Origin: Hyphomicrobiales bacterium
GTDB taxonomy: Bacteria > Pseudomonadota > Alphaproteobacteria > Rhizobiales > Beijerinckiaceae
NCBI GenBank assembly: GCA_947455725.1
Contig: CANGPL010000008.1
Location: 1 to 64,000, forward strand
Direction: 5' to 3'
Length of the DNA stretch: 64,000 nt
In this document: positions 39,745-61,282 of the stretch, piece after piece
Numbering within the stretch: the stretch's first letter is position 1
How the letters are laid out: the number at the start of each line of letters is the position of its first letter
Made by a program: the position numbers and the translations under genes
The notes under the pieces: generated by a model
What the model saw: only the letters and a program-made list of their open reading frames with translations
Databases searched by the model: none
Told to the model about the DNA's origin: nothing

Positions 39745-39810
39745 TCACGATCGTTCTTGAAAAATGTAAGCCATTCGGCGGGGCTTAGGTCCCGCCGAGT
39801 GTGCCTTTAA

Positions 39811-42353: not shown

Positions 42354-42363
42354 GGGGGCGGCG

Positions 42364-43380: not shown

Positions 43381-43694
43381 TGGAGCGCTATGCCTTCAAA
43401 ATGTTTCTCAATCCCGGGCAGCGCGACGCGTATAAAAAGCGTCATGATGAAATCTGGCCAGAGCTTGCGCATTTGTTGCGCGAGGCTGGTATTCGAAATT
43501 ACTCGATCTTCTTAGACGAAGAAACGCATATTCTCTTTGGCTATCTTGAGCGATCCGATACGCATGGGATGGATCAATTGCCCGACCACCCAGTGATGAG
43601 GCGTTGGTGGGATTATATGAAAGATGTCATGCAAACGGATGCGACGGGTGCGCCGATTGCTATTCGAATAGGCGAAGTTTTTCATCTTGATTAG
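43380..43694 (+). CDS. rhaM: L-rhamnose mutarotase
   Basis: 104 residues, matching RhaM in length and motifs: His22 in KRHDEIWPEL, the IRNYSIFLDEETHILFGYLE strand pair, and RRWWDYMKDVM. It interconverts the anomers of L-rhamnose (and in relatives of other 6-deoxy sugars). A second ATG at 43377 is in frame; GGGAG is spaced 6 bases from the ATG at 43380. Its place directly after the permeases is the best evidence that the transporter carries L-rhamnose or a near relative. Confidence 0.92.
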   Translation: MERYAFKMFLNPGQRDAYKKRHDEIWPELAHLLREAGIRNYSIFLDEETHILFGYLERSDTHGMDQLPDHPVMRRWWDYMKDVMQTDATGAPIAIRIGEVFHLD

Positions 43695-43722
43695 AACAAT
43701 TAAATTGTAGGGAGTGTGTAAC

Positions 43723-44760: not shown

Positions 44761-44768
44761 TCCGCTCA

Positions 44769-45548: not shown

Positions 45549-45557
45549 AGTAGGTTC

Positions 45558-46934
45558 ATGAATAAGGTTCCAATGACGATCGCGGAGACAAAAGCCGCGG
45601 TTCAATCCGGTCGGTTGACGGCAGAGCAATCGGTGGCTGAGGCGCTCGAGCGGATTAACGCTTGGAATGGCAAGCTAAAAGCCTTTGTCACCGTTGATGG
45701 TGACCGCGCGCTGGCGGACGCGCGGCATCTAGACCATTTGGCGGCGATGGGTGTGCCGAAGGGGCCGCTTTTCGGCGTGCCTTTGGCGATTAAGGACATT
45801 ATCGATGTCGCAGGGCTTCGCACCGGTGGCGGCTCGCTGACGCGCAAGGACGCGGCGGTGGCTCAAGCCGATGCCGAGGTGGTGACGCGGCTCAGGAATG
45901 CCGGTGCCGTCATTATGGGCAAGGTCGCGACGGTAGAATACGCCTTTGGCGGCTGGGGCTCGAATGAGACAGTGGGTGCGCCGCATAATCCGTGGGATCT
46001 GGAATGCGCCCGCGTGCCGGGTGGCTCCTCAAGCGGATCTGGTGTGGCTGTGGCTGCCGGTCTGGTGCCCGGCGCGTTGGGGTCCGATACCGGCGGGTCG
46101 ATCCGGCTGCCCTCCTCCTTTGCGGGCATGGTGGGCTTGAAGACGACGGCGGGCTTGATCCCGAAAACGGGCGTGTTGCCGCTCTCCGATATTCTCGACA
46201 CAATCGGTCCGATGACGCGGTGTGTGGAAGATGCCGCGATTTTGTTTGATGTATTGATGGGCCATGCGCCGGGCAGCAGTGTTCCGGCAAAGGTTGAGGC
46301 CAAAGAGGCGTTCCGCAATAAGCGGATTGGCGTTCCGGTCGATTTGGGCGTTTCGCTCCATCCGGATACGGCAAAGGTCTATGCTGATATACAGGAGCGC
46401 TTAAAGGCTGCCGGGGCGACGTTGGTGCCGGTGCGCTTTCCGACGAGTCTTGCGGATTATGCGGCGCCTTGCGGCATGTTTTTGGCGGTTGATTCCTATC
46501 GTCATTACGGCCCGCTTGCCGAGGAAGAGCCTAACCGTTTGGGCGATCCCGTCCGTAAACGCATGTTGAGCGGCAAGTCGGTAACCGCCGTGGATTACTC
46601 TAAGAATTTGGAGCGCCGCGAGCGCGAAAAGGCGGTGATTGCTGCCGTTTTTGAAACCGTCGATACGATTTTGATGCCATCAACGGCGATGCCGGCGCCT
46701 GTCCTTGGCGAACATCCGGAACATGACAGTCCCGCGGTCTTTACCCGTTTTGCTAATTATTTTGATCTGGCAGCGATTTCGCTCCCTGTGGGCCTGTCGA
46801 GCAACGGATTGCCGATTGCCATGCAATTTGTTGTGCCCGGTCTGGCAGAAGCCCGCGCGCTCGATCTGGCCTATCGGCTGGAAATGGCCGAAGGCGGCCC
46901 GATCCTCTGCCCACTTTTGGCGAAAATGGCCTGA
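45558..46934 (+). CDS. Amidase signature (AS) family hydrolase
   Basis: 458 residues. The Ser-cisSer-Lys triad is present: Lys79 in AIKDIID, Ser157 or Ser158 in GGSSSGSG, and the nucleophile Ser181 in SDTGGSIRLP. Such enzymes hydrolyse amides or, as AtzF and GatA relatives, allophanate or glutamyl-tRNA; the substrate here is open. The codon use is more GC-rich than in the preceding genes. It begins 9 bases after the SDR stop, apparently in the same transcript, which is unusual for a sugar operon. Confidence 0.88.
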   Translation: MNKVPMTIAETKAAVQSGRLTAEQSVAEALERINAWNGKLKAFVTVDGDRALADARHLDHLAAMGVPKGPLFGVPLAIKDIIDVAGLRTGGGSLTRKDAAVAQADAEVVTRLRNAGAVIMGKVATVEYAFGGWGSNETVGAPHNPWDLECARVPGGSSSGSGVAVAAGLVPGALGSDTGGSIRLPSSFAGMVGLKTTAGLIPKTGVLPLSDILDTIGPMTRCVEDAAILFDVLMGHAPGSSVPAKVEAKEAFRNKRIGVPVDLGVSLHPDTAKVYADIQERLKAAGATLVPVRFPTSLADYAAPCGMFLAVDSYRHYGPLAEEEPNRLGDPVRKRMLSGKSVTAVDYSKNLERREREKAVIAAVFETVDTILMPSTAMPAPVLGEHPEHDSPAVFTRFANYFDLAAISLPVGLSSNGLPIAMQFVVPGLAEARALDLAYRLEMAEGGPILCPLLAKMA

Positions 46935-47886: not shown

Positions 47887-47912
47887 GGCGGCTCTTACTT
47901 ACCCAAGCCGCC
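47887..47912. terminator. Hairpin across the fpr/gabD convergent ends
   Basis: GGCGGCT (47887-47893) pairs with AGCCGCC (47906-47912) around a 12-base loop. The right arm is inside the last codons of gabD and the left arm lies beyond the fpr stop. There is no T-tract. It may slow polymerase from either side; this is weak evidence. Confidence 0.4.
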
Positions 47913-49376
47913 CATCAGCATATATTTAATCTCGACATATTCATCGATGCCGTGCATCGATCCTTCGCGGCCTATGCCGGATTCTTTCATGCCGCCAAAG
48001 GGGGCTTCGGCGGTTGAAATAATGCCTTCATTGATACCCACCATGCCATATTCGAGCGCTTCGCCTACGCGCCATACGCGGCCAATGTCGCGCGTGTAAA
48101 AATAGCAGGCTAGACCAAACTCGGTGTCATTGGCCATCGCGATTGCTTCTTCTTCCGTTTTGAAGCGGAAGATTGGTGCAACGGGGCCAAAGGTTTCTTC
48201 GCGTGCAACGAGCATATCGGGCGTTACATCGCGAATGATGGTGGGTTCAAAGAAGCTGCCGCCTAAAGCGTGGCGCTTACCGCCCGCCAGCACTTTGCCG
48301 CCTTTTGCGATGGCGTCGGCCACGTGTTCTTCGACCTTTTTGATGGCTTTTGCATTGATGAGTGGGCCAGTGGTTACGCCCTCGTCAAAGCCATCGCCAA
48401 CGCTGAGTTTTTTCACGGCCTCAGCGAGCTTTTCGGTGAAGGCATCATAGACACCATCTTGCACAAGCATGCGATTGGCACAGACGCAGGTTTGTCCGGC
48501 ATTGCGATATTTTGAGAGCATAGCGCCTTGAACGGCTGCATCGAGATCGGCGTCATCAAACACGATAAAGGGGGCGTTGCCGCCGAGTTCGAGACCAATT
48601 TTTTTAACGGTTGAGGCGCATTGCGCCATCAGCAATTTGCCAACGGCTGTTGAGCCCGTGAAAGAGAGTGCGCGCACGATGGGGCTTGATGTCATCTCCG
48701 CGCCGATTTCGCGCGCCTGTCCAGTCACGACCGAAAAGACGCCGGCGGGGATGCCCGCGCGTTCGGCCAATTCAGCGAGTGCGAGCGCGGAAAACGGTGT
48801 TTCCTCGGATGGTTTGACAACAAAAGTGCAACCGGCTGCGAGCGCGGGTGCCGCTTTGCGGGTGATCATCGCATTCGGAAAATTCCATGGCGTGATAGCC
48901 GCAACCACGCCTACGGGCTGGCGTATAACCACGATACGGCCATTTGGCCAAGGCGAGGGAACGGTTTCGCCATAAATCCGGCGAGCTTCTTCACCAAAAA
49001 ACTCGACAAAGCTTGCACCATAGGCCACCTCGCCTTTGGCCTCTGCCAAAGGCTTGCCCTGCTCGGCGGTCATGATGCGGCCGAGATCGTCTTGATGTTC
49101 CATCATCAATTCGAACCACCGGCGGAGAATTTGGCCGCGTTGCTTGGCAGCCGTAGCCGCCCATGATTTTTGCGCCCTCTGGGCGGCTTCAATGGCTTGC
49201 GCCGTCTCTGCCTTACCGAGCGAAGGGATTGTGCCGATAACGGCACCTGAGGCGGGGTTTGTGACCTCGATACGCGTGTCTGAACCTACCCAGCGCCCAT
49301 CAATATAGCTCTCTTGGCGGAAGAGGCTCTTTTCTTTGATCAAATTCGACAAAGGAGCGGGCGAGGAAACAGTCAT
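47895..49376 (-). CDS. gabD: Succinate-semialdehyde dehydrogenase (NAD(P)+)
   Basis: 493 residues. The general base is Glu263 in LELGGNAPF, the nucleophile Cys297 in NAGQTCVCANR, and the cofactor segment ITPWNFPNAM is present. The CxC at the active site and overall wording fit GabD, which oxidises succinate semialdehyde to succinate in GABA breakdown; glutarate semialdehyde is an alternative. GGAG is about 8 bases before the ATG at 49376; the longer frame to 49388 lacks one. No gabT adjoins it. It is the last gene of a leftward group, 106 bases after the HAD gene. Confidence 0.92.
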   Translation of the reverse strand: MTVSSPAPLSNLIKEKSLFRQESYIDGRWVGSDTRIEVTNPASGAVIGTIPSLGKAETAQAIEAAQRAQKSWAATAAKQRGQILRRWFELMMEHQDDLGRIMTAEQGKPLAEAKGEVAYGASFVEFFGEEARRIYGETVPSPWPNGRIVVIRQPVGVVAAITPWNFPNAMITRKAAPALAAGCTFVVKPSEETPFSALALAELAERAGIPAGVFSVVTGQAREIGAEMTSSPIVRALSFTGSTAVGKLLMAQCASTVKKIGLELGGNAPFIVFDDADLDAAVQGAMLSKYRNAGQTCVCANRMLVQDGVYDAFTEKLAEAVKKLSVGDGFDEGVTTGPLINAKAIKKVEEHVADAIAKGGKVLAGGKRHALGGSFFEPTIIRDVTPDMLVAREETFGPVAPIFRFKTEEEAIAMANDTEFGLACYFYTRDIGRVWRVGEALEYGMVGINEGIISTAEAPFGGMKESGIGREGSMHGIDEYVEIKYMLMGGLGK

Positions 49377-49482
49377 GATAAACTCCAAAATGATATCGAG
49401 AACCCCGGCAGGGGCACGGCTTTAACGGCTTCCTATACCCTCAACGGAGGTTCTGCCAAGGGTTGCGAGAGGCAAATTCAAA

Positions 49483-50151
49483 CTAAGTGAGTTTGAGCTC
49501 GCTTGCGGCCATGAGAAGGGCGGCCATATCAGGAAAAGAAGCATCCCGTGCGATGGCATCATCCACGCCATACCCCGCCTCGAAATGGCTGCCGCCTGTA
49601 AAGTGCCAAGCAGACATGCCAGCCGATTTGGCGGCGATTAGCCCGAAGGCGCTATCCTCAATCACCACGCAGCGTTCGGGTTTTACGTTCAAACGCTGTG
49701 CGGCATGCAGAAAAAGATCGGGCGCTGGTTTGCCATGTTTCACCATGGTCGCGCTGAAAACGTTCGGTCCGAAATAGGCGTCGAGTTTCGTCGTTGATAG
49801 AGAGTGTGCCGCGCGAACAGGATCACTGCTTGTCGCAACGCAGATTTTTGTCGTGAGTTTTTGAAGAAGGTTCTCGATGCCTTTGATAGGTTTGAGGTCT
49901 CTTTCAAAGCGATCAAATAAAGCCACACGAAGCGCTTCTTTGAAATCAGACGGGGGTGCCTTGCCAGTCTCGTCTCGAATGGCGACGACGGCTTGGTCGA
50001 AACTGCGGCCAACGAGCCGTTCAAAAAAGAAGCGCTCGGTAATGGCGATCTCATAACGCTTTAATGTATTGAGATAGACCGCAACGGTGAGGCTCTCGCT
50101 ATCGACGAGGACGCCGTCACAATCAAAGATAACTAAGTCAAAATGGGGCAC
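49483..50151 (-). CDS. HAD-superfamily phosphatase/phosphoglucomutase-like
   Basis: 222 residues starting at GTG. The HAD motifs are DCDGVLVDSE (nucleophile Asp and general acid), the Ser/Thr motif CVATSSDP, Lys in HGKPAPDLF and the acidic VIEDSAFGLIAA. This subgroup (HAD-IA) includes sugar-phosphate phosphatases such as YieH and beta-phosphoglucomutase. It ends a four-gene leftward set with an isomerase-like SIS protein, a TIM-barrel isomerase and a mutarotase, so it probably acts on a sugar phosphate. Its start is 6 bases after the SIS stop. Confidence 0.85.
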   Translation of the reverse strand: MPHFDLVIFDCDGVLVDSESLTVAVYLNTLKRYEIAITERFFFERLVGRSFDQAVVAIRDETGKAPPSDFKEALRVALFDRFERDLKPIKGIENLLQKLTTKICVATSSDPVRAAHSLSTTKLDAYFGPNVFSATMVKHGKPAPDLFLHAAQRLNVKPERCVVIEDSAFGLIAAKSAGMSAWHFTGGSHFEAGYGVDDAIARDASFPDMAALLMAASELKLT

Positions 50152-50157
50152 GATGAT

Positions 50158-50721
50158 TTACTCGAGATTGGTATGACGGCCACGCATCGTCTCGGCGGTT
50201 TCGCTAAGCCGATCGCGGAGTTTAAGGATGACAAATTCAAAGAAAATCGTTTGTGCGATTTCAAAGAGGGAGCCCATGGGTAAAACAGAAACAGAGACGC
50301 TTTGATCATTCGCCATGGTTTGCGCGGGAATGACCGTTACACAATCTGCTTGCATGGGTGTCGTGCCATTTGGTTGCGACGTGATGACGGCGGTCTTGGC
50401 GCCATCTTCCTTAGCCACACGCATAAAGGCTTCGCCCGAGTTAAGATGTCCTGTACCGGCTGTGACGATCAAGAGATCGCCATTGCCGAGATGGGGCGTC
50501 GTCATATCGCCCAAGACGCTCACGTGAAGCCCCAAGTGAAAGAGGCGCATCGCGAAACCTTTGATCGCCAAACCTTCTCGACCGCAGCCATAAACTGCAA
50601 TTTTATTGGCCTCAAGAATGGCGTTGATGAGGTTATCCGCTGCCTCATCCGGAATCGCGCGGAAGACCTGATGCAGTTCATCGAGTGCGGATGCACCGAG
50701 CGATGCAATGGAAGCTTGCAT
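50158..50721 (-). CDS. SIS-domain sugar-phosphate isomerase (6-phospho-3-hexuloisomerase-like)
   Basis: 187 residues, one SIS domain: AVYGCGREGLAIKGFAMRLFHLG, then GDLLIVTAGTGHLNSGEAFM and KTAVITSQPNG. The length and layout match 6-phospho-3-hexuloisomerase (HxlB), which interconverts hexulose-6-phosphates, but no hexulose-6-phosphate synthase is nearby. It could isomerise a sugar phosphate made by one of the two PfkB kinases. AGGA lies 8 bases before the ATG. The start is 9 bases after the TIM-barrel gene. Confidence 0.82.
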   Translation of the reverse strand: MQASIASLGASALDELHQVFRAIPDEAADNLINAILEANKIAVYGCGREGLAIKGFAMRLFHLGLHVSVLGDMTTPHLGNGDLLIVTAGTGHLNSGEAFMRVAKEDGAKTAVITSQPNGTTPMQADCVTVIPAQTMANDQSVSVSVLPMGSLFEIAQTIFFEFVILKLRDRLSETAETMRGRHTNLE

Positions 50722-50730
50722 GAGAGAATC

Positions 50731-51732
50731 CTAATCCGGAATCGGGCGATTGAATAACGCCGCCTGCACAATTGCTTGGCTTTTGGGTGAATCTTGCCGG
50801 GCGATCGCGTTGGATAATCCGGCATGATTTTTTAGCTTTGCAACAACGGCCTGCATGGCTTCAACCGCTGCGATATTGGTCGCGCATTCCGCGACAGGAT
50901 CAAGGCCTGCCGTATCGGGGAACGTATCGAAATAAATCACGCCCTTATAGCCGCATTGTTCGAGCACATGGAGAAGTTCGATGGTTTGGATGGGATGCAC
51001 GGAACCTGCGATGAGACCGTCATCCCGTTTGCCGTAACCATCGTTTAAATGAACGCCAAGCAATTTGGAGTGGCGGGCGATGAGCGTTGCAGCATGGGCG
51101 GGCATTTCATCGGCATAAAGCACATGCGCAAAGTCGAGTGTAACGCCTGTGTTAGGGCGATTGATTTCTTTAATCGCCAATAGAGTTGTTGCAACATCGG
51201 GCATAAGACTAAACGAGCGTGGCTCATTGGGCTTATATTCGATGGAAATATCAATGGCAGGGTTATGCCGCGCGATTTCATCCATCGCGGCAATCGTATC
51301 ATCCCACGCTTTTGCGTAATCGATTTGGAACGAGTAATCGAAACCATCTTGTCCCATCCAAAGCGTCATGAGATTGCCGCCCGCTTTGGCAAGCGAATCT
51401 AGGCCGCGCTTGGTGATATCAATGGCGTTGCGTCGCACTTGTTGATCGGGATGGGTAAAGGCACCGAGTTTGAAGCCAGGGTCGGTGTAATAGCGCATCG
51501 CGTAGCCGTTGAGGCGAACGCCTGATTGGGCGAGACCTTCGACAATTTCGGTTTCCGTGAAACCTTCAAGATGGTCTGGGAAATTGAGATCAACCGCGTT
51601 CAAGCCTTTAACGCTTGCGGCTCTTTGAACAAGATCGAGCGTGTTGGGTTTACGATTGAGACCGCGCCAATAATTGTTCGTATCGATTTTGAAGGAATTC
51701 AGTCGAGCGGCATAGCCTTGTTGCGTCGTCAC
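50731..51732 (-). CDS. Xylose isomerase-like TIM-barrel sugar isomerase/epimerase
   Basis: 333 residues starting at GTG. The metal-site segments resemble xylose isomerase and tagatose epimerase: ISIEYKPNEPR, VTLDFAHVLYADEMP, LGVHLNDGYGKRDDG and IYFDTFPDT. It probably interconverts an aldose and a ketose, or epimerises a ketose, using a divalent metal. The exact sugar is unknown. The GTG follows the mutarotase stop after one base, so the two are surely coupled. Confidence 0.83.
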   Translation of the reverse strand: MTTQQGYAARLNSFKIDTNNYWRGLNRKPNTLDLVQRAASVKGLNAVDLNFPDHLEGFTETEIVEGLAQSGVRLNGYAMRYYTDPGFKLGAFTHPDQQVRRNAIDITKRGLDSLAKAGGNLMTLWMGQDGFDYSFQIDYAKAWDDTIAAMDEIARHNPAIDISIEYKPNEPRSFSLMPDVATTLLAIKEINRPNTGVTLDFAHVLYADEMPAHAATLIARHSKLLGVHLNDGYGKRDDGLIAGSVHPIQTIELLHVLEQCGYKGVIYFDTFPDTAGLDPVAECATNIAAVEAMQAVVAKLKNHAGLSNAIARQDSPKSQAIVQAALFNRPIPD

Positions 51733-51733
51733 G

Positions 51734-52174
51734 TTAAATCACGCCTTTTTTGAAAATGAAGCAGCCATACGGGCCGGGATCAGACGTTTGAACAATGGCA
51801 AAGCTTTTGGCAGCCGCTTCATAAAAATCAAAGCGCTCATAAGCCCCGATCTTAATCGAGCGACCTTCGGCTTTATTCACAATATCCTGCATCGTGTGGT
51901 GGATGGGTACGAGCTTCTCAGGATCTCCCACGACTTTCATGCGCATGACGGGCTCTTCGACAAAGGTGTCGAGCGGGAAGACGGAAAGGACGGCCTCGGC
52001 GGCGCGCGCGAGGTCGGCGCCAAAGAGTGACACAAGTTTGCCATGGGTCGTCTTGGCGGCCAGCGTCGATGCAGGGTGGTTGCGGTCGCATAAGACAATC
52101 TCATCACCATGGCCCATGGCTTTGAGCACATAGAGAAGGTCGGCGGTCAGGATCGGGTCGAGGCCTTTCAGCAT
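51734..52174 (-). CDS. RbsD/FucU-family sugar mutarotase
   Basis: 146 residues. The family start MLKGLDPILTADLLYVLKAMGHGDEI and catalytic candidates His22 and Asp30 (LCDRNHPAS) are seen, with YECFDFY-like and PYGCFIFKKGVI ending. RbsD/FucU enzymes speed up the anomer exchange of ribose or fucose. AAGGAG is about 8 bases before the ATG at 52174; the frame continues to 52255 without support. First gene of the leftward set, divergent from the ribokinase gene with 140 bases between starts, a likely shared control region. Confidence 0.9.
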   Translation of the reverse strand: MLKGLDPILTADLLYVLKAMGHGDEIVLCDRNHPASTLAAKTTHGKLVSLFGADLARAAEAVLSVFPLDTFVEEPVMRMKVVGDPEKLVPIHHTMQDIVNKAEGRSIKIGAYERFDFYEAAAKSFAIVQTSDPGPYGCFIFKKGVI

Positions 52175-52314
52175 CGCAATGCTCCTTAAAGAAATCGTTG
52201 GGATCAAAATCACAGATCTATCGGCAAGTTGCAATGACCTCTTGCTATGAAACACGTTTGACGATGGAGTCTTGAGCTCATACGATTGAAAAAAGACGAT
52301 TTGGGGAGCGTTTT

Positions 52315-53244
52315 ATGTCTAAGACCGGTGGCATCGCAATTCTTGGAATTTTTGTGGCCGATTTGGCCTTCAGGTCGGGCCGAATGCCAGCGGTTGGCGA
52401 AACCATTATGGGGTCCGGTTTTGCGATGGGGCCGGGTGGTAAGGGTTCCAATCAGGCGGTGGCGGCAGCGAGGGCCGGTGCGCCGGTGACTTTTATTTCG
52501 CGGCTTGGCCAAGATTCCTTTGGCGATATCGCAATGGCGACGTGGCAGAAAGAAGGGATTACCACCCGGGTCGCACGCTCGGATGATGCACCGACGGGAG
52601 CGGCTTTTATCTATGTGAACGACACGAATGGCGAGAACGCGATTATTGTTGTGCCCGGGGCTGCGGGCTTGATTTCGTTAGCTGATGTTGAGGCAGCGGC
52701 CGATTCGATCAGGAATGCAGCGGTTTTTGTGACGCAATTGGAGCAACCGCCAGAAGCCGCATTGCGCGCACTGCAGATTGCGAAAGCCGCGGGTGTTGCG
52801 ACGATTTTTAACCCGGCACCGGCGGCACCTTTTGATGAATCGATTTATGCACTGGTCGATTACATCACGCCGAATGAGAGCGAAGCGTCGGCTATGATCG
52901 GGTTTCCTGTTATGTCCGTTGACGATGCAAGAAAGGCCGGAGATGCACTGCTTGCTAAAGGCGTTGGTACGGCTTTGATCACGTTGGGTGAAAAGGGCGC
53001 TCTGTTTCATGATAAATCGCAGTCGGTGCTGGTGCCAGCCTTTGATGCCGGAGCGGTTGTTGAAACGGCGGGTGCAGGTGATGCGTTTAATGGCGGCTTT
53101 GCGGCAGCACTTGCCAAAGGTATCGAGCCATTAGCCGCTGCACGGTTTGGCTGCGCGGTTGCGGGCATTTCGGTGACGCGGGCGGGTACGGCTCCGGCCA
53201 TGCCGAGTTTAAGCGAAGTCGAGGCTTTGCTTAATCGTATCTAA
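52315..53244 (+). CDS. rbsK: Ribokinase-like PfkB sugar kinase
   Basis: 309 residues. The sugar-site motif GGKGSNQA is at 41-48 and the catalytic GAGDAFNGGF ends with Asp256 as base. The first strand (AILGIFVADLAFRSGRMP) and the ATP-site segment (ALITLGEKGALF) are normal. It phosphorylates a pentose or similar sugar, ribose being the default family call. GGGGAG is 6 bases before the ATG. It is followed by an ABC ATPase gene in the same direction. Confidence 0.9.
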   Translation: MSKTGGIAILGIFVADLAFRSGRMPAVGETIMGSGFAMGPGGKGSNQAVAAARAGAPVTFISRLGQDSFGDIAMATWQKEGITTRVARSDDAPTGAAFIYVNDTNGENAIIVVPGAAGLISLADVEAAADSIRNAAVFVTQLEQPPEAALRALQIAKAAGVATIFNPAPAAPFDESIYALVDYITPNESEASAMIGFPVMSVDDARKAGDALLAKGVGTALITLGEKGALFHDKSQSVLVPAFDAGAVVETAGAGDAFNGGFAAALAKGIEPLAAARFGCAVAGISVTRAGTAPAMPSLSEVEALLNRI

Positions 53245-53320
53245 TGGCTTGCGGCGGCAGATAAAACATCGCAAATTGAAATCGGACCTTAAAGGGCGTG
53301 TATCTTATCGGGGGGAATGA

Positions 53321-54418
53321 ATGGCCGGTCTTGCATTGCGCGGCGTCAAAAAATCGTTTGGCAGCGTGGAAGTCATTCGTGGCGTTGATCTCGATATTAA
53401 AGATGGTGAATTCTGCGTGTTCGTTGGCCCTTCGGGTTGCGGAAAATCGACGCTGTTGCGAATGATTGCAGGCCTTGAAGAGATGAGCGATGGTATTATC
53501 GAAATCGGCGGCAAGGATGTGACGTTCTTACCGCCTGCGAAGCGCCGCATCTCGATGGTGTTTCAATCTTACGCGCTTTATCCGCATATGACGGTGCGCC
53601 AGAACATTGCGTTCGGGCTTAAAATGGCCAAGACTTCACGCGATGAAATTGCGGCGCGCACCACGAAGGCCGCCAATTTATTGCAATTGACAGATTACCT
53701 TGATCGCAAACCTGCGCAACTGTCTGGTGGACAGCGTCAGCGCGTCGCGATTGGGCGCGCGATTGTGCGTGAGCCGGAAGTATTTTTATTCGACGAACCG
53801 CTTTCGAATTTGGATGCAGCCTTGCGTGTTCAGATGCGTATCGAAATCGCCAAACTTCATAATGATCTGAAAGCCACGATGGTTTATGTCACCCATGATC
53901 AGGTTGAAGCCATGACGATGGCCGATAAGATTGTGGTGTTAAATGCGGGTCGTATCGAGCAAATCGGTAGTCCGCTTGATCTCTACCATCGTCCAAATAA
54001 TTTGTTCGTTGCGACCTTTATTGGTAGCCCGAAAATGAATCTGATGCCGGGTGAAGTGACCGGCGTCGATAATGGCTCTGCGACGGTTGTTTTAAAAGGC
54101 GGCGTGCAAATTTCGGTTGATACGCATGGCAAGTCTCTGGCCAAGGGGCCGGTAACCGTTGGCATCAGGCCGGAGCATATTGGCGTTGGATTAACGGGTG
54201 CTCAAAATACCGTTCCGGGCAAAGTGGTGCTGTCCGAGCATTTGGGTGGTGAAACCATGCTCTATGTCGAGACATCTGCGATACCGCAATGCGTGGTGAA
54301 GACCGATGGTTTGGCCTCGCAAAAGATAGGCGAGGCTGTATCGCTCTCACTGCCAGCGAATATGTGTCACCTCTTCGATGCCAACGGACAAGCACTTGTG
54401 AACGGCTCGCTGATTTAA
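53321..54418 (+). CDS. CUT1 sugar ABC transporter ATPase (UgpC/MsmK-like)
   Basis: 365 residues. Walker A GPSGCGKS is at 36-43, the signature LSGGQRQRV near 134, Walker [14 protein letters not shown], and the His switch [11 protein letters not shown]-terminal TOBE/regulatory domain starts near 240. It energises a CUT1 importer; the matching permeases and binding protein lie on the opposite strand at 56410-60224, and no other CUT1 set is present. A GGGGG site precedes the ATG. The stop is 5 bases from that of the converging M42 gene. Confidence 0.94.
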
Positions 54419-54423
54419 GCCGT

Positions 54424-55548
54424 TTAAGGTTCGTGCGGATCGCGATCGAGACTGAAGTTTTCGTCGATCGTGCCAATGGCTGCCGTGAGCAAATCGGATA
54501 GGCTGACGAGATCGTTGAGATCGCACATCTCAAGCGAGGAATGCGTATAACGGCATGGGAAACCCATATCGATCACGGCGACGCCAGAACCTACCAATTG
54601 CACGTAAGAAGATTCGGTGAGCGCGCCGATATGCGCGCTGCGCTGCAAGGAAATGCCGGTTGTCTTTGAGGTTTCTTTAAAGAGCGAGACGATGGCCGGA
54701 TGCGGAATCGCACCGTTCAGCGTACCGCGTCCATGGAAACTATACATGCCCATTGCGGGGCCTGCGCCCAAACGAACATCGCCACGGCTTGCCATATCGG
54801 GCGTATCGGTTGCCAAGATGAGATCGAGCTGAATGGCGATATCGGGTTGTAAAGCTTGGGCTGCTGTTACGGCACCGCGCAAATTAAATTCTTCCTGAAC
54901 GGAGAAAACGATATGCACTGTTGGGTGCATTTTTGACGCAATAAGATTTTTTGCAACATCTAAAACAACAGCGCATCCGGCACGATCATCGACGGATGTT
55001 CCCGCGATCCGATCATTTGCAAGTCTTATCACATTCGGTCGATAGACAACGGGTGTTCCGATATCGATGCCGGCCTTCATCGCCTCATCGGCGGAAGTAA
55101 ATCCAGCATCGATAAAGAGATCTTGATAGGGAACGACCTTGTATTTTTCTTCCGGGCTCGTTGCGTGGTGGCTTTTATTTGCAATGACGCCCGGAACATC
55201 TTTCCCTGCTCCTACGCATAAAAGAACTTCTTGCGATGCGAGTGCACGTTCGGGTACGCCGCCTAAGCGCTCAACACGAATTAAGCCATTGGCTTCGATT
55301 TTTCGTACGATCAATCCCAGTTGATCAATATGGGCGTAGAGCATCACCGAGGGCGCGCCTTTTGCGCCGTGAAGTGTTGCGATAAGATTGCCAAGGCGAT
55401 CTGTTGAATGGGGCAGCCCAAGCTGATCCAACTCCTTTGCAATCGCGCGGCGGACGCGGCCCTCGTGACCGCTGAGACCCGGGATTAGCATCAAGTCGTG
55501 CAACGATGCAGCGAGGCTTTCGAGATGCGATTTCTTCGCGGAGGACAT
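54424..55548 (-). CDS. M42-family metallopeptidase-like protein (SgcX/FrvX type)
   Basis: 374 residues. All M42 dinuclear-metal ligands are visible: His73 and Asp75 in YAHIDQLG, bridging Asp187 in SVDDRAG, Glu219 and Glu220 in VQEEFNLRG, Asp248 in ATDTPD, and His336 in RYTHSSLE. M42 enzymes are usually tetrahedral aminopeptidases, but the SgcX/FrvX branch is found in sugar operons where its substrate is unknown. The start is 4 bases after the BtpA gene stop. AAGGA precedes the ATG. Confidence 0.9.
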   Translation of the reverse strand: MSSAKKSHLESLAASLHDLMLIPGLSGHEGRVRRAIAKELDQLGLPHSTDRLGNLIATLHGAKGAPSVMLYAHIDQLGLIVRKIEANGLIRVERLGGVPERALASQEVLLCVGAGKDVPGVIANKSHHATSPEEKYKVVPYQDLFIDAGFTSADEAMKAGIDIGTPVVYRPNVIRLANDRIAGTSVDDRAGCAVVLDVAKNLIASKMHPTVHIVFSVQEEFNLRGAVTAAQALQPDIAIQLDLILATDTPDMASRGDVRLGAGPAMGMYSFHGRGTLNGAIPHPAIVSLFKETSKTTGISLQRSAHIGALTESSYVQLVGSGVAVIDMGFPCRYTHSSLEMCDLNDLVSLSDLLTAAIGTIDENFSLDRDPHEP

Positions 55549-55552
55549 TTGA

Positions 55553-56365
55553 TTATCCTTTTCGTGCGGCGCGGGCGAGTTTCATGAACTCCATAGCCCG
55601 ATCGGGGTCGACCGCGTTCCATGTATGCCCATCGACCTTTAACGACGAGCCAACAATGCAGCCATCGGCTACGTTAAGCACATCGGCAATGGTTGAATGT
55701 TTAACGCCTGTATTTGCTAGAACAGGTGTCATCGGAAGTGCTTTTTTCACCGCCTCAAGATCACTCATCGCGGCGGCTTCCCCCGTAATCGCGCCGGAGA
55801 CGAGAATAGCATCCGGAATGCTGGAGAAGACGGCGCTGCGTGCGCGGTCTGCGAGGCTGCGTTGATCGAGCGAATGGGCAAATTCGGCGGAGATATTGTA
55901 GAGCAGTGGCATATCGCTTCGACCAAGGCGGTCCCGATAGCGCATGGCCGCACCCGCATTCGGTGTCCATGGCCCCATATCGGAAGCATAGGTGCCGGTA
56001 AAAATTTCACGCACAAAAGAAGCGCCTGTTGCAGCCGCAAGCGCAATGCTGCTCATTGGATCCCATAAAACATTTACGCCAAAGGGCAGTGTGATTTCGC
56101 TGCGTACTTGCCCAATAATATAGGCCATTGTGGCCGTTGAGGCCGTATCGACATTGAACTCATAGGGCCGATCATTTTCATTGCCGAACATGATCGCGTC
56201 AAAGCCAGCGGCTTGGAGCGCTTTAATATCTTTTCTTACGCCGTCTAATAGGCCGTCCAATCCGGCGTCAGTATCATAGAGCGGCGAGCCCGGAAGGGCG
56301 CCGAAATGCACCATTGCTATGACGGGTTTTGTGTTGCCGAATACACGCGTGAACTTAGAGCTCAT
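55553..56365 (-). CDS. BtpA/SgcQ-family protein
   Basis: 270 residues with a TIM-barrel look: KPVIAMVHFGALPGSPLY at the start, then FDAIMFGNENDRPY, PFGVNVLWDPMSSIALAAATGASFVREIFTG, and a phosphate-loop-like GSSLKVDGHTWN near the end. The family takes its name from a cyanobacterial photosystem I assembly factor; SgcQ is its E. coli member in the sgc sugar operon. No enzyme activity is established for the family to my knowledge. It lies between the M42 gene and the two permeases. Confidence 0.9.
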   Translation of the reverse strand: MSSKFTRVFGNTKPVIAMVHFGALPGSPLYDTDAGLDGLLDGVRKDIKALQAAGFDAIMFGNENDRPYEFNVDTASTATMAYIIGQVRSEITLPFGVNVLWDPMSSIALAAATGASFVREIFTGTYASDMGPWTPNAGAAMRYRDRLGRSDMPLLYNISAEFAHSLDQRSLADRARSAVFSSIPDAILVSGAITGEAAAMSDLEAVKKALPMTPVLANTGVKHSTIADVLNVADGCIVGSSLKVDGHTWNAVDPDRAMEFMKLARAARKG

Positions 56366-56409
56366 AGGCCCATTTCTCCGTTACTGAGCGAAACTAAAGG
56401 ATATGAAAC

Positions 56410-57339
56410 TTATTTGACGGCACCTGCCGTTAGTCCCTTCACGATATACCGCTCGAGGAAAACGCCAATCACAATCAGTGGCGCAATCGCACCCGTTGAA
56501 AGGGCTGCCATGGTCCACCAGCTAATGCCTTGCGAACCTGTTTGACTTGCAACCATCACCGGCACCGTTTTTGCGTTGGTGCTCGTGAGAAGGGCGGCAA
56601 AGAAATATTCATTCCAGCATAGCACAACAGACAGAATGAAAGCCGCAACCATGCCCGGAAGGGCAAGCGGTAGAACAATGCGAATGAATGCGCCCCATAT
56701 GCTGCACCCATCAACAAGGGCCGCTTGTTCAAGCTCAATCGGTATGGTTTCGAACTGATCGCGCGTGATCCAAATCACGATTGGCAAGACCATTAAGGTA
56801 TAAACGAGGATGAGGCCGAAGAGATTATCAAGCAGTGCAAGTTCTTTGTATAAAACAAGGAACGGCATGGCGAGAACGACGGGCGGTAGCAGAAGCTGCG
56901 AAAGAAAGAAAAAGGAAATATCTTTGTTTCGCCATGGACCAAATTTATAATTGAACCGCGCTAATCCATAGGCCGCCGGCGCGCCGATGATAACGGCCAA
57001 TAGCGATGCGCCAACCGATGCAATAACGCTATTGCCAAAGCGCAAGAAAAACTCGTCGCGTACGGTCGAGACTTGAAAAATTGTATCGGGCGAAAGACCA
57101 AGCGAGCGCCAACCTTTCCAATCCCCTTGAAAGCGACCGATGAACGGAATGATGTCGCCTTGTGTGACGTTAACAGCGGTTTTGAACGACGTCGAAATCG
57201 TCCAATAAATTGGAAACAGGCAGATAAAGGCCCATGTGAGAAGCGCGGCGTAAATTAAAATTTTGGCAACGGCTCGGCTCCAATTCCAAGGCTGCGACGC
57301 GCGGCGACGCGCGCTATAGGCTTCACTTGCAGTTGTCAT
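56410..57339 (-). CDS. CUT1 sugar ABC transporter permease (MalG-like)
   Basis: 309 residues, six membrane helices. The ATPase-docking EAA loop is EQAALVDGCSIWGAFIRIVLPLALPG. A short cytoplasmic N-terminus and the large periplasmic loop after helix 1 are typical. GGAGG stands 7 bases before the ATG, inside the end of the upstream permease gene, with a 4-base overlap. It pairs with the next gene as the importer channel. Confidence 0.93.
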   Translation of the reverse strand: MTTASEAYSARRRASQPWNWSRAVAKILIYAALLTWAFICLFPIYWTISTSFKTAVNVTQGDIIPFIGRFQGDWKGWRSLGLSPDTIFQVSTVRDEFFLRFGNSVIASVGASLLAVIIGAPAAYGLARFNYKFGPWRNKDISFFFLSQLLLPPVVLAMPFLVLYKELALLDNLFGLILVYTLMVLPIVIWITRDQFETIPIELEQAALVDGCSIWGAFIRIVLPLALPGMVAAFILSVVLCWNEYFFAALLTSTNAKTVPVMVASQTGSQGISWWTMAALSTGAIAPLIVIGVFLERYIVKGLTAGAVK

Positions 57340-58457
57340 TGGGCGGCCTCCCGGCGCATGAAGCGGCCAACAAGATTTAACAGGATCGTGATGAAGATAA
57401 TGATGATGATCAAATAGACCTCGGCAGCCATTGTGCCATAGCCCACATTGGAGCGATCCCGATATTCACGGAAGATGAAACTCGAAACCGTATCCGTTGC
57501 CCCGCCCGGTCCACCGGATGTTGTATTAATTACAATATCGGCCAGCTTCAGTTGAAAAATGATCCGCAGAACAATGGTCGTAACGCTCACGGGCAACATT
57601 AAGGGAAACGTGATGTGCCAGAACGATGTCCAACCCGCAGCACCGTCAACTTTAGCGGCTTCTTGAATGTCTTTCGGCATCGCTTGAAGGCCTGCAAGAA
57701 TCAAGATGATCATGAAGGGCAGCCAAACCCATGCATCAAGGGCTAGGATGCTAAAGCGCGCAATCCACGGTGTTGCGAAAAAGGCTGGGTTATCCCATCC
57801 GAGGTGGCGTGCGAGCCCCGCTAAAGGACCAAATCGAAATTCCATCAAGGATTTGCCGATCATCCAGCTCACTGCAACGGGGCTGAGCATGAAGGGCAAT
57901 AGAAAAGCGACGCGGAAAAATTTGCGGGCACGAATATCGGCGTTAAGTAACAGAGCTAGACCGAAGGCCAGCGCGTATTGCAGCATTACGCTTGCGACAT
58001 AAAAGGTCATGTTACGCAACGCATTCCAGAAATAGGTATCGTGATAAAGTGTTCTCAGATTATCGAGGCCATTGAATTTCTGGCCATCGAACGAACTCAA
58101 ATTCCATTCGCTGAAGGCGATGTAAAAGCCAAAGACGGTTGGAAAAATAACCAAAGCAATGGTGAACAATAAAGCAGGCAGCAGAAACAGGGCTTTATGG
58201 CCTGCTTCACCGCGCATCATCACTTGGGAAATACCAACAGATACCGCCCAGACAACATAGGCATAAAGGGTGGGGCGCCAATCGGTGAGTCCAAAGGTGA
58301 TCACGCCGCTTGCATCAAGAATTTGGAAGATTGCGATGGCTGCAAGCAAGATGCTCGTCACAATGATCAGCATACGTCCGGCGGACTTGCGACCTTCCGA
58401 GATCAAGGATGCATGGCTCATAGCAACAGAGTGTGACATGGCAACCGCTTTTATCAT
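57336..58457 (-). CDS. CUT1 sugar ABC transporter permease (MalF-like)
   Basis: 373 residues. The N-terminal part has two to three extra helices (about residues 25-110) before the usual six. The EAA loop is QEAAKVDGAAGWTSFWHITFPLMLPV. Starts at 58457, 58439 and 58421 are all in frame and none has a good ribosome site, so the N-terminus is uncertain. The leader between the binding-protein gene and this gene carries three inverted repeats that may lower its translation. Confidence 0.9.
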   Translation of the reverse strand: MIKAVAMSHSVAMSHASLISEGRKSAGRMLIIVTSILLAAIAIFQILDASGVITFGLTDWRPTLYAYVVWAVSVGISQVMMRGEAGHKALFLLPALLFTIALVIFPTVFGFYIAFSEWNLSSFDGQKFNGLDNLRTLYHDTYFWNALRNMTFYVASVMLQYALAFGLALLLNADIRARKFFRVAFLLPFMLSPVAVSWMIGKSLMEFRFGPLAGLARHLGWDNPAFFATPWIARFSILALDAWVWLPFMIILILAGLQAMPKDIQEAAKVDGAAGWTSFWHITFPLMLPVSVTTIVLRIIFQLKLADIVINTTSGGPGGATDTVSSFIFREYRDRSNVGYGTMAAEVYLIIIIIFITILLNLVGRFMRREAAQ

Positions 58458-58477
58458 TGGTGTTGAAACGCTCTAGC

Positions 58478-58526
58478 GTCGATTGAAAATGAATCGACTG
58501 GCGGCGATGGATAACGCCGCCAGTCG
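58478..58526 (-). repeat. Overlapping, mutually exclusive hairpins between binding-protein and permease genes
   Basis: Arms at 58495-58506 and 58515-58526 (CGACTGGCGGCG with CGCCGCCAGTCG) form a 12-bp stem right after the binding-protein stop. A second repeat, GTCGATT (58478-58484) with AATCGAC (58492-58498), shares bases 58495-58498 with the first stem, so both cannot form at once. A third small stem lies at 58468-58479. The strong stem fits a 3'-end stabiliser of the binding-protein message; the overlap suggests a switch. Confidence 0.6.
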
Positions 58527-58559
58527 CTGTTCAAGGCTTAATCAAGCATCACGGCCTGA

Positions 58560-60224
58560 TTACATGCCGAGCGAGGCCCGGTAGAGCTTCAATTGGTTTT
58601 CGCGACCGATTTGATCGGTGAGCTTATCCCAAGCGGCTGCAATCGAATCCGCACCCTGCTGCGCCGTCATCTTGCCTGCAAATACCTTTGCGAGCTCGTC
58701 TTCGGCGACGCTGTAATATTGGAAGATACCAGGGATACGTGGCTCAATCGCACGGTTCGGATGGTTATACGAACCGAACTGTGACTTCAGGTAGGACGTG
58801 ATATAGTCCTTGTTATAGCCTGCACCCACCCATTCAGCGATATCCGAATGGCTGTTCCGGTGAACCTGCATGCCCGATGGATACATCACCATCCAAAGCG
58901 ACAGGTCCTTGCCACCGAGATGAGCAGCAGCCGACCAAGCCGCCTTCTGCTTCTTAGGATCTGCGTCCACGCGAGCCATCACGTAAACACCCCAGCCGAG
59001 ATAGGCGCAGTTTGGAGCGAAGTTAGGACCGCTTGCGAGCTTTTCCCACTTCGCCGTCTTGTAGTTATAGACGTCGTCGGAGCCTGGCAGGATGTCGAAG
59101 GCGACATCATTGCCGATAACCGAAGTGTCGCTCGTATTGGCCATTGAGCCAACGTCGCCCCACCAAGAAAGCATCGAGCCTGTACCAGCAAGGAATTGCT
59201 GGAACGCGGTCGTGCCTGGGTCGGCATTGAGCTGATCGGCAGGCTCGGATGGCAGGCTGTCGATCACGTCCTGAATAGCACGAACCCAACCCGGATTGTT
59301 GACGAGTGGCTTCATATTCTCTGGGTCGAACAACCAGGCCTTGTTGTCTGGGTGCTTAACATAGGCCGTTGCACGGTCTTCGAGGAAGTAGAAGCCGAAG
59401 CCGCCCCAACCCTTGGCTGGATCGAGATAGCCAATCGCATCTTGGCCCTTAATCTTCTTGCCCTTGAGGAATTTGGTGACCTCATTGACCTTCTGCCAGG
59501 TCCGTGGCACGGCCCATTCGCCCTGATGACCTTCGGCCTTCCAAGCCTTGGCCAATTCCGGATCAGAGAAATAGTCGGTGCGGTAGTTGAAGTTATGGCA
59601 ATCGCCATCAATCGTGATGCGGTAGGTCTTGCCATCCCATGTGCCGACTGGAGGCTTGAGGTAGTCCGAATAATCGTCAATATCGACCTGCTTCTTGACC
59701 CAATCCGGCATGACGGAGGCAAGGCCCTTGCCGCACACATCGCCTTCGAAAGGTGCGCCCATTTCGAGAATATCGAAGTCGACGGTCTTTGTGGCAATCG
59801 ATTGCTGGAGTCGTGCGTTGTAATCGGCTTGCGCAAGGTCGATCCAGTTGATCTTGGCGCCCGTGTAGGCTTCCCAAGGCTTCAAGAAGCCGCGGAAGAG
59901 CATGTTATGCAGGTTCTGGTTGTTCAGGCCCATGAAGTTGAGCTCAACGCCCTTGAACTCGCCAGGCTTCACATTGGCCTTGGTGGCTTCGAGGCACATC
60001 TCGCCGACCTTCTGCCATTCAGCATCGCCCGGTGAACCCTTACCGACGCCAGGAATTTTGAGAATGGCGGCGCGCAGGCTGTCAGCAGCAAGCGCCGAGC
60101 CGGGTATAGCCGTTGCACCTAGGCCACCCGATGCACCAAGGGCAGCAACACCTGCTGCGCCCTTTAAAAGGCTACGGCGATCCGTCTGCATGCTTAAAAG
60201 TTGGTTGTATTCTTCAACCTTCAT
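58560..60224 (-). CDS. Large extracellular solute-binding protein of a CUT1 importer
   Basis: 554 residues. It has a Tat-like signal (TDRRSLLKGAAGVAALGASGG...GSALA). The mature part resembles family 1 carbohydrate-binding proteins (ATIAT-like lobes; FKGVELNFMGLNNQNLHNMLF, WGGFGFYFLEDRA, FLAGTGSMLSWWGDVGSM). It is longer than MalE-type proteins (about 400), like the AglE or ProX-like large binders of rhizobia. GGGAGAGAG precedes the ATG. Codons are strongly GC-ending, suggesting high expression. The ligand is unknown. Confidence 0.9.
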   Translation of the reverse strand: MKVEEYNQLLSMQTDRRSLLKGAAGVAALGASGGLGATAIPGSALAADSLRAAILKIPGVGKGSPGDAEWQKVGEMCLEATKANVKPGEFKGVELNFMGLNNQNLHNMLFRGFLKPWEAYTGAKINWIDLAQADYNARLQQSIATKTVDFDILEMGAPFEGDVCGKGLASVMPDWVKKQVDIDDYSDYLKPPVGTWDGKTYRITIDGDCHNFNYRTDYFSDPELAKAWKAEGHQGEWAVPRTWQKVNEVTKFLKGKKIKGQDAIGYLDPAKGWGGFGFYFLEDRATAYVKHPDNKAWLFDPENMKPLVNNPGWVRAIQDVIDSLPSEPADQLNADPGTTAFQQFLAGTGSMLSWWGDVGSMANTSDTSVIGNDVAFDILPGSDDVYNYKTAKWEKLASGPNFAPNCAYLGWGVYVMARVDADPKKQKAAWSAAAHLGGKDLSLWMVMYPSGMQVHRNSHSDIAEWVGAGYNKDYITSYLKSQFGSYNHPNRAIEPRIPGIFQYYSVAEDELAKVFAGKMTAQQGADSIAAAWDKLTDQIGRENQLKLYRASLGM

Positions 60225-60373
60225 TGGACTCTCTCCCTTTTTTATCCGCGTCTGTTTCTACGCTGGCAAGGTAAGCTATCCGAGCAAAGGATAGTGTCAA
60301 TGGGCCAAGTGATTACGAATCGGATTTGTTTTCATTATTTTACGCATCAAAAGCCTGAACGCGCTTGCGCAAT

Positions 60374-61282
60374 TTAATGGGACACTAAATCTGCGGTCGT
60401 TTTTTCTTCTTCGCTAAGCGACACAAAATAGCCTGCCATTTTGCTGGCATGGCGGGTGGCATGTTCTAAGGAGGCACCGCCAGCCAGTTTTGCGGCAAGT
60501 GATCCGATAAAACTATCGCCTGCGCCATGCGTGGAAACGACTTTTACTTGTTCTGCCATAACGGTAATTTCGCTGCCGTCTCGCCGGATGAGAAGCAATC
60601 CATCGCCGCCCAAGGTGATAATGACATCGCGGGTGGCGCTTCTCAGATATGGAGCGGCTTTTGAGGCGTCGGCAATGCTATCGACCGTGACCCCTGAAAG
60701 CATCGATGCTTCGACCCGGTTCACCACGAGAATATCGATCTGGTCCAAAAGGTCAGGTGCCATTGGACGGGCAGGTGCCGCGTTTAGGAGGATCGTTGCC
60801 CCCTGTTTCCGGGCCAAGCGGGCCAGCGCGGTATTGATTGATTCGGGCACTTCATTTTGCAGAATGAGAATTTTGCCGCCGCCGAGCGCTTCCCAAGCGT
60901 GACATGCTTCTGACGGTTCGAGCTTAAGATTAGAGCCGGAGACGATAACAGCGCCGTAATTTCCCGATGATTCTAAGATCGCAACGCTCATGCCTGAGCC
61001 GGTTGTCGGATCGATGGAAACCTTAGTCCGGTCGACACCCGCTTGGTCGAGGGAAGCGGTGAGGCGTGTGCCAAAATCATCATCGCCAATGCGCCCGATC
61101 ATGGCCGTTCGAGCCCGCATTCTGGCCGACATTTCCGCCTGATTTCGACCTTTTCCGCCGCATTTATAGGCCCATTCGCTACCAATGGCGGTTTCGTCGG
61201 ATTGCGGCAAATGCTGCGCTTTCACCATAATATCGAGGTGGAGGCTGCCGCATACGATGACATCGAAAGGTAAGGGGGGCAT
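60374..61282 (-). CDS. PfkB-family sugar kinase
   Basis: 302 residues. The sugar-site motif GGKGRNQA (42-49) and catalytic GAGDSFIGSL with Asp256 mark a ribokinase-like fold. The Arg in place of the usual Ser of GGKGSNQ and its own wording (CGSLHLDIMVKAQHLPQSDE) distinguish it from the rbsK copy in this window. It likely phosphorylates the imported sugar or an intermediate. 149 bases separate its stop from the binding-protein start, which probably contains the latter's promoter. The ribosome site is weak. Confidence 0.88.
   Translation of the reverse strand: MPPLPFDVIVCGSLHLDIMVKAQHLPQSDETAIGSEWAYKCGGKGRNQAEMSARMRARTAMIGRIGDDDFGTRLTASLDQAGVDRTKVSIDPTTGSGMSVAILESSGNYGAVIVSGSNLKLEPSEACHAWEALGGGKILILQNEVPESINTALARLARKQGATILLNAAPARPMAPDLLDQIDILVVNRVEASMLSGVTVDSIADASKAAPYLRSATRDVIITLGGDGLLLIRRDGSEITVMAEQVKVVSTHGAGDSFIGSLAAKLAGGASLEHATRHASKMAGYFVSLSEEEKTTADLVSH

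Follow-up and report, generated by a model that had tools for sequence, protein, structure and literature searches.

An SgcX-type M42 hydrolase and a BtpA/SgcQ protein in a conserved sugar locus of a Hyphomicrobiales bacterium: possible entry enzyme and later common step of one pathway

What do SgcX and SgcQ, whose genes are among the unsolved ones of E. coli K-12, contribute to sugar catabolism, and does their joint occurrence mean that they act on the same compound? The question is raised by a locus at positions 49483-61282 of the window, by which is meant the whole stretch of 64,000 nucleotides analysed here (Hyphomicrobiales bacterium, Beijerinckiaceae; assembly GCA_947455725.1, contig CANGPL010000008.1, positions 1 to 64,000, forward strand). 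In this locus, the gene of an SgcX-type M42 metallohydrolase lies directly beside a BtpA/SgcQ gene, together with an ATP-binding cassette (ABC) importer and two PfkB kinases. The initial annotation of this DNA had considered the function of sgc as unsettled, in agreement with a 2026 atlas, which describes sgc mutants with no growth defect on 190 Biolog carbon sources and the induction of E. coli sgc on slow, nitrogen-containing carbon sources, and whose authors also propose pentitol-related chemistry as a hypothesis (PMC13343008). None of the reports found in literature searches on SgcX, SgcQ and BtpA gives a function for BtpA in sugar catabolism. The comparisons described below show that the locus is a real, conserved pathway built on known protein families. 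A tentative reading, given just under even credence, is that of one uptake-and-catabolism locus for a substrate of pentose or pentitol type, in which the M42 protein and, in other systems, a short-chain dehydrogenase/reductase (SDR) would be alternative entries to a trunk containing BtpA. The comparison yields a testable order of steps as well as a probable partner kinase.

Genome contigs from 84,980 species, each represented by one genome, were scanned with an alignment of the window M42 protein, E. coli SgcX and the M42 protein of an alphaproteobacterial relative (L029, which belongs to another family of the class); of 260 confirmed relatives, the best 80 were kept. With L029 added, 81 rows were obtained, which are homologous and not independent loci, and which amount to 80 distinct ones since L111 is the same contig as L029. 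The loci reach at most 10 kb from the M42 gene, some ending sooner at contig ends, so that absences make the counts lower bounds on presence. BtpA was found beside M42 in 77 of the 81 rows by profile annotation, always on the same strand and, as judged by open-frame ends, within 60 nt in 74. As for the four rows without a full BtpA neighbour, L121 begins at a contig end, L116 has a partial one, and L077 and L093 show none. The partial match of L116 (9717-9935, 73 residues) lies directly upstream of M42 with no space for the remainder, being either a truncated gene or an assembly fault.

To have a control not selected through SgcX, BtpA and M42 were sought in 385 genomes of the class; 19 BtpA loci scored over cut-off, and a long M42 match (>=138 bits) was obtained in 32 genomes. 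No BtpA over cut-off was present anywhere in 29 of these 32 genomes, and 17 of the 19 BtpA loci show no M42, among them L036, which ends at the contig edge on the M42 side. Both families occur in three genomes, being adjacent in two (the window and L029) and on different contigs in the third (G163), where the M42 protein (L129) is identical to that of L121 at its contig end and adjacency cannot be told. An obligate pairing of the whole families is therefore ruled out and, since class-sample M42 and BtpA mostly occur apart, the pairing is a trait of one M42 subclade, not of M42 or BtpA at large. On a quickly built M42 tree of 118 rows, one of them a duplicate, the label 'BtpA adjacent' requires 5 changes, whereas shuffling the labels gives 32 on average; the long branches of this tree make deep placings unsure. 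The co-occurrence that the initial annotation had put forward as a check is thus borne out for the SgcX-type subclade and fails for the families as wholes.

This subclade can also be recognized by its sequence. The motif HGRGTL is found in 86 of the 118 M42 sequences and EEFN.RG in 81 of those 86, while the other 32 carry neither; both are present in the window protein, L029, E. coli and Salmonella. The motif search was made on unaligned sequences and is hence independent of the gapped alignment, and the 86 sequences include repeats (L029/L111/L130; L121/L129) and near copies (five Inquilinus-like). Residues H73, D187, E219, E220, D242 and H336, whose metal-site and catalytic roles we take from M42 structures, are conserved in 86 of 86 SgcX-type sequences, the window one included. 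The residues after the catalytic glutamates pass from EEVG to EEFN in the SgcX type, N222 being found in every one of the 86 and in none of the 32 others, in an alignment whose C-terminal half is gapped in most of those 32 (26 at H336), so that column counts are weak there. The window protein belongs to peptidase family M42, as indicated by PF05343 (over cut-off) and the conserved metal-site residues, both of which it shares with the M42 aminopeptidases TET, FrvX and YpdE; its best PDB match is MJ0555 (9qr6, 211 bits). It lies, however, below the cut-off of all NCBIfam aminopeptidase equivalogs, and the EEFN and HGRGTL signatures separate the SgcX type from the other M42 proteins compared. Identity to the window M42 ranges among the relatives from 92% down to 62%, and is 36% for E. 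coli SgcX.

BtpA, in turn, is commonly found without M42. In the class sample it lies near an FGGY or PfkB kinase in 15 of the 19 loci (two weak, L040 and L041) and near M42 in 2, and in 7 of the 19 a dehydrogenase more than 50% identical to the reference ones is found nearby. No SDR of this dehydrogenase-locus type (>50% identity) occurs in the 81 M42 rows, the best reaching 37%. The BtpA-FGGY-SDR-DeoR-CUT1 loci of Rhizobium, Shinella, Labrenzia and Thermus have a BtpA 58-71% identical to that of the window and, like the window, a CUT1 importer and a sugar kinase; they differ in having an SDR, no M42 in the stretch and an FGGY kinase of another clade (31-32% identity). L036, with a BtpA of the M42 type in the tree, an aldo/keto reductase (AKR) gene upstream and its end where M42 would begin, may be a cut M42 locus. 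In a second sample of 249 genomes, eleven BtpA loci over cut-off were detected in ten genomes, of which two were repeats and nine were fetched; seven of these nine contain a kinase, FGGY in L176, L178, L180 and L181 and PfkB-like in L177, L179 and L182. L176, which is the same as L092 (Mesorhizobium loti LU), consists of an operon with BtpA, a CUT2 permease, M42, FGGY, a CUT2 importer and DhaK-DhaL-like subunits, and with so very few enzymes is perhaps a minimal version of the pathway, in one instance.

A distant BtpA system was also observed in L177, L179 and L182, all three with BtpA, a PfkB-like kinase and a CUT2 importer. Phosphotriesterase-family and GATase1-like proteins are present in L177 and L182 according to Pfam, and those of L179 look alike. 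An M20 hydrolase overlaps BtpA by 4 nt in L177 and stands about 7 kb off, on the other strand, in L182; M20 and M42 are families of one clan.

The relation between the M42 and SDR systems was assessed by comparing the histories of BtpA and kinase. In Shinella and Labrenzia, kinase and dehydrogenase are 60% and 65-69% identical to those of R. leguminosarum, and with the M42-type FGGY of L029 the kinase shares 32% identity. Their BtpA, however, is 70-71% identical to that of the window as against 51-52% to the rhizobial one. In the BtpA tree, for which 34 of the 78 M42-type sequences (77 rows and the window) were used and L184 was dropped as too short, Shinella and Labrenzia fall inside the M42-type clade (98/97; with L092, 100/95); in the FGGY tree, with 16 of the 73 M42-type kinases, they fall inside the SDR type (100/98), the M42-type FGGY forming one clade (100/100). 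Thermus (L025) behaves in the same way, but on a long branch. When the FGGY clade was forced on the BtpA data, after the removal of six long-branch rows (60 to 54), it was rejected (log-likelihood 101 lower, p of the approximately unbiased test (p-AU) 0.001). Such an exchange of BtpA between SDR and M42 systems is best understood if BtpA were to catalyse the same reaction in both. Since BtpA is often found without M42 while SgcX-type M42 rarely lacks BtpA, and given the conflict between the BtpA and FGGY trees, M42 would be the entry enzyme and BtpA a later, common step.

The complete locus was found as the initial annotation had placed it, with all twelve genes present as open frames at the expected positions and strands. 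The assignments come from Pfam and NCBIfam scans for ten of the proteins and, for the two permeases, from similarity to annotated permeases. The genes, preceded by an aldehyde dehydrogenase gene directly downstream of the HAD gene, are as follows.

47895..49388, minus strand: aldehyde dehydrogenase, succinate-semialdehyde dehydrogenase type (TIGR01780, 741 bits, over the cut-off of 646)
49483..50151, minus strand: HAD-family phosphatase of the beta-phosphoglucomutase/sugar-phosphatase branch (PF13419, E=4e-27; no equivalog cut-off reached)
50158..50721, minus strand: SIS isomerase, HxlB-like, 6-phospho-3-hexuloisomerase family (TIGR03127, 159 bits, just under the cut-off of 160)
50731..51732, minus strand: xylose-isomerase-like TIM barrel (PF01261; best match of a profile of 17 relatives, PDB 3ktc, 233 bits)
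51734..52255, minus strand: RbsD/FucU-type sugar mutarotase, RbsD (PF05025, E=5e-33)
52315..53244, plus strand: ribokinase of the PfkB family, RbsK1 (TIGR02152, 305.9 bits, over the equivalog cut-off of 299.65)
53321..54418, plus strand: ATPase of a CUT1 ABC importer, MalK/UgpC type (NF008653, 480 bits, over the cut-off of 432)
54424..55548, minus strand: SgcX-type M42 metallohydrolase (PF05343, 258 bits, over cut-off)
55553..56365, minus strand: BtpA/SgcQ protein, TIM barrel (PF03437, 254 bits, cut-off 30; TIGR00259, 254 bits, cut-off 153)
56410..57339, minus strand: ABC permease 2, CUT1 (35-39% identity to annotated carbohydrate permeases)
57336..58457, minus strand: ABC permease 1, CUT1 (open frame; 4-nt overlap with permease 2)
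58560..60224, minus strand: solute-binding protein, 554 aa, with an N-terminal extension (open frame; family-1 sugar-binding-protein fold in the model)
60374..61282, minus strand: second PfkB kinase, ribokinase-like, RbsK2 (PF00294, 180 bits; TIGR02152, 232.1 bits, below the cut-off of 299.65)

The importer is split over both halves of the locus, with binding protein and permeases leftward and the sole CUT1 ATPase rightward, and this one locus contains all the parts of a CUT1 system, from the UgpC/MalK ATPase and both permeases to the family-1 binding protein. That the two halves form a single system, as had been supposed, is upheld by L029, where ten genes of the set recur in one neighbourhood in a different order. 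No operator common to both halves was detected in a crude scan of nine upstream or intergenic stretches, in which 16-mer matches did no better than the top one from 30 shuffles and 7-bp palindromes (gap of up to 6) were absent. The source genome, of whose contig C8 the window is a part, is a 2.98-Mb draft and was found to have a single gene each for BtpA and M42.

Compared with the sgc operon of E. coli and Salmonella (sgcX-sgcB-sgcC-sgcQ-sgcA-sgcE-sgcR), the window has likewise an SgcX-type M42 (36%), a BtpA/SgcQ protein (45%) and a transporter. However, the sgc operon has a phosphotransferase system (PTS) and an epimerase resembling ribulose-phosphate 3-epimerase (RPE), and places sgcB and sgcC between the M42 and BtpA genes, whereas in the window these two are directly adjacent and are accompanied by an ABC importer, two PfkB kinases, RbsD and the SIS and TIM-barrel isomerases; none of the twelve genes is a PTS or RPE-like gene, the PTS IIA/IIB/IIC and SgcE components of an sgc operon thus being absent. 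The pair was found with PTS (L026, E. coli; L157, Salmonella), with CUT1 (the window and most of the 81 rows) and, in one operon, with CUT2 (L176), confirming its recurrence across uptake settings. The accompanying statement, that the PTS is here replaced by an ABC importer plus kinases, stands as regards the importer but not as regards the PfkB kinases, the usual partner being an FGGY kinase.

An FGGY kinase is present in 73 of the 81 rows and lies at most 60 nt from M42 in all 73. The further counts are permease 2, 65; permease 1, 64; binding protein, 62; MalK, 52; RbsD, 41; AKR, 37; RbsK1, 32; TIM-barrel isomerase, 28; SIS, 24; RbsK2, 22; fuconolactonase-like, 20; creatininase-like, 17; enolase-superfamily and UxaA-like dehydratases, 5 each; and DeoC, 4. 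A narrow HAD model built from the window lineage matches 3 of 81 rows, all of the same lineage. Some sugar kinase occurs in 79 rows, and the two that lack one are contigs about 5 kb long. FGGY is missing from eight rows, namely L048-L052 and L054, L065, and L104, where the contig ends; the first six form with the window a lineage that has PfkB kinases instead of FGGY and, in part, HAD, possibly a natural replacement of one kinase by another. The best FGGY match elsewhere in the window's own genome, a draft 90% complete, scores 259 bits as against 772-970 for M42-type orthologs, and was discarded as pathway kinase, being judged a paralog; in a draft of this completeness, absence of the gene is not proven.

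According to the model proposed, the CUT1 importer would take up a sugar derivative of pentose or pentitol kind, which the SgcX-type M42, no longer a typical peptidase, would hydrolyse to free the sugar. The latter would be phosphorylated by a kinase (FGGY in most relatives, PfkB in the window lineage, with the PTS in this role in E. coli), and the resulting sugar phosphate would be the substrate of BtpA/SgcQ, for which a lyase or epimerase activity feeding central metabolism is most likely. Side forms might be handled by RbsD, HAD and the TIM-barrel and HxlB-like isomerases, and in related loci the SDR would take the place of M42 as alternative entry to the trunk ending with BtpA. M42 is set ahead of the kinase because it is replaced by the SDR in other systems, and a phosphorylated ketose is suggested as BtpA substrate by the TIM-barrel fold and the linkage to kinases. 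The more specific proposal, that BtpA/SgcQ is a pentulose-type phosphate lyase or epimerase common to the SDR-FGGY and hydrolysis routes and that SgcX-type M42 proteins are hydrolases of small sugar derivatives and not peptidases, is more doubtful, though it is by no means negligible.

The BtpA/SgcQ membership of the protein is clear, with whole-length matches over the curated cut-offs of PF03437 and TIGR00259, while the score for the BtpA of photosystem I biogenesis (NF045918) is 163.7 bits against an equivalog cut-off of 400. The structural model (predicted local distance difference test, pLDDT, 92.5) is a predicted TIM barrel matching KDPGal aldolase, 3-hexulose-6-phosphate synthase, ribulose-phosphate 3-epimerase and others, tied at Z 17-19; a reading of the reaction from the fold was dropped on account of these ties, and the reaction class is a guess from the model. 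Among the relatives by profile, tryptophan synthase alpha and geranylgeranylglyceryl phosphate synthase chains predominate, matched weakly and mainly in the C-terminal part, where a GSSLK stretch at the end of BtpA looks like the phosphate-binding loop of TIM barrels.

Regarding the substrate, R. leguminosarum has in its BtpA-FGGY-SDR locus a binding protein that scores 646 bits against PDB 5iai (Arad_9887), a structure containing ribitol (PMC8468352). This near-ortholog, together with the ribokinase and the ribose/fucose-type mutarotase of M42-type loci, favours a substrate of the pentose/pentitol family. Known rhizobial pentitol loci (eryA, lalA, rbtABC, mptABCDE) likewise have an ABC transporter together with a kinase, in the case of adonitol (ribitol) and L-arabitol, and 'BtpA' is absent from the accessible part of the text describing them (PMC3599248); the identity of S. 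meliloti RbtC as a BtpA protein was considered and could not be established. The window binding protein gave no Pfam or NCBIfam match at E<=0.001, and its leader may be read as twin-arginine-like. Its model (pLDDT 65) matches glycoside-binding proteins at Z about 20-22 over residues ~90-540, but a ligand could not be taken from it, Z 20-22 being tied over glucan, maltose, trehalose, sulfoquinovose, dinucleotide and ribitol (5iai) binders; a profile of 30 relatives found no PDB sequence at E<=0.01, nor did it place the protein in the 5iai ribitol-binding type. The BtpA-FGGY-SDR loci, with a near-ortholog of the ribitol-binding protein, constitute a simpler system where BtpA can be studied without M42 and, if the model is true, the dehydrogenase-type rhizobial loci offer culturable strains for finding the SgcQ reaction.

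Several observations weigh against this model. Its weakest point is that the PTS of E. coli would phosphorylate the sugar before M42 acts, so that M42 would there need to accept the phosphorylated form. An M42-free relative, connected with the window through the BtpA family only, is the source of the ribitol clue, and the Shinella binding protein is distant from 5iai (142 bits); moreover, the AKR and fuconolactonase-like genes of many relatives point to a 6-deoxyhexose. The tied fold matches of BtpA, to aldolases, synthases and others, single out no reaction class. A constraint holding all SDR-type BtpA apart was not rejected (p-AU 0.21; 0.44 without Thermus), and for this reason the direction and exact number of exchanges are not fixed by the trees. 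L077 and L093 have M42 without BtpA at the locus, the genome of L077 having BtpA elsewhere. Finally, no kinase is present in four of the 19 class-sample BtpA loci, L036 (6 kb contig), L042 (4 kb), and L044 and L045, which are longer stretches with partial BtpA matches, nor in two of the nine of the second sample (L183 and L184).

The initial annotation had instead suggested that M42 and BtpA act on the same intermediate, for instance an amide- or glycoside-linked sugar phosphate, that is, after phosphorylation. The tight, same-strand adjacency of the two genes is in line with this, as are the PTS of E. coli, which would supply a phosphorylated sugar ahead of SgcX, and the M20 amidohydrolase near the distant BtpA of L177 and L182. 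Nevertheless, the class sample does not support the suggestion, given that M42 is missing from 17 of its 19 BtpA loci, the majority of which adjoin a kinase and seven of which carry a dehydrogenase of one type. In addition, BtpA appears exchangeable between M42 and dehydrogenase systems, all of which makes this an unlikely explanation.

Degradation of L-fucose or another 6-deoxyhexose conjugate, with a FucU mutarotase, the AKR as fucose dehydrogenase, a lactonase and a dehydratase, was also considered and is held to be of similarly low probability. It would account for the AKR (37 of 81 rows), the fuconolactonase-like proteins (20 of 81; 205 bits, cut-off 400) and the two kinds of dehydratase in 5 rows each, for the presence of an L-rhamnose importer at 38.7-43.7 kb of the window followed by an AKR gene, and for the RbsD scores, nearer to L-fucose mutarotase (NF011949; 74.3 bits, cut-off 141) than to ribose pyranase (26 bits, cut-off 93). 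However, neither mutarotase cut-off is reached, nor is that of fuconolactonase, while RbsK1 passes the one of ribokinase; the genes are optional, the AKR being absent from 44 of 81 rows and the lactonase from 61; and L-fucose dehydrogenases also accept D-arabinose.

Salvage of (deoxy)nucleosides or (deoxy)ribose is highly unlikely. Such a route would employ ribokinase, ribose mutarotase, DeoC and aldehyde dehydrogenase, and RbsK1 indeed exceeds the ribokinase cut-off, DeoC and aldehyde dehydrogenase being within the cluster in L029 and L055. Nevertheless, DeoC is rare (two of its four rows, L029 and L111, are one contig), the single DeoC-family match of the window's own genome lies on another contig, and no nucleoside hydrolase or phosphorylase is found among the ten scanned window proteins. 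Although the 81 rows are homologous and count one contig twice, it is also very improbable that M42 is an ordinary aminopeptidase with a BtpA adjacency inherited with one mobile cluster and no joint function, given that the pair is kept through rearrangement, in three uptake settings and over the whole range of M42 identities, and that N222 is fixed and EEVG turned into EEFN after the catalytic glutamates.

Some minor points concern the gene models and the surroundings of the locus. The true start of RbsD is probably downstream of the annotated one, since its annotated length is 173 aa as against a median of 151 aa in relatives. The aldehyde dehydrogenase at 47895..49388 is syntenic in L048-L050 and L052 and is a possible member of the locus. 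L123 (recorded as Solirubrobacterales) and L083 (recorded as Mycobacterium) carry alphaproteobacterial-type loci and both labels look doubtful; L083 groups with Inquilinus on the M42 tree, and in the phylum sample around the L123 genome one match has a contig number and coordinates identical to those in a genome from the window's class. In addition, an L-rhamnose import system occupies 38716-43694 of the window on the plus strand, with a CUT2 ATPase, two permeases, a RhaS-type binding protein (402 bits, cut-off 342) and an L-rhamnose mutarotase (110 bits, cut-off 99.6), and is followed at 43714-46934 by an AKR and then an SDR and an amidase.

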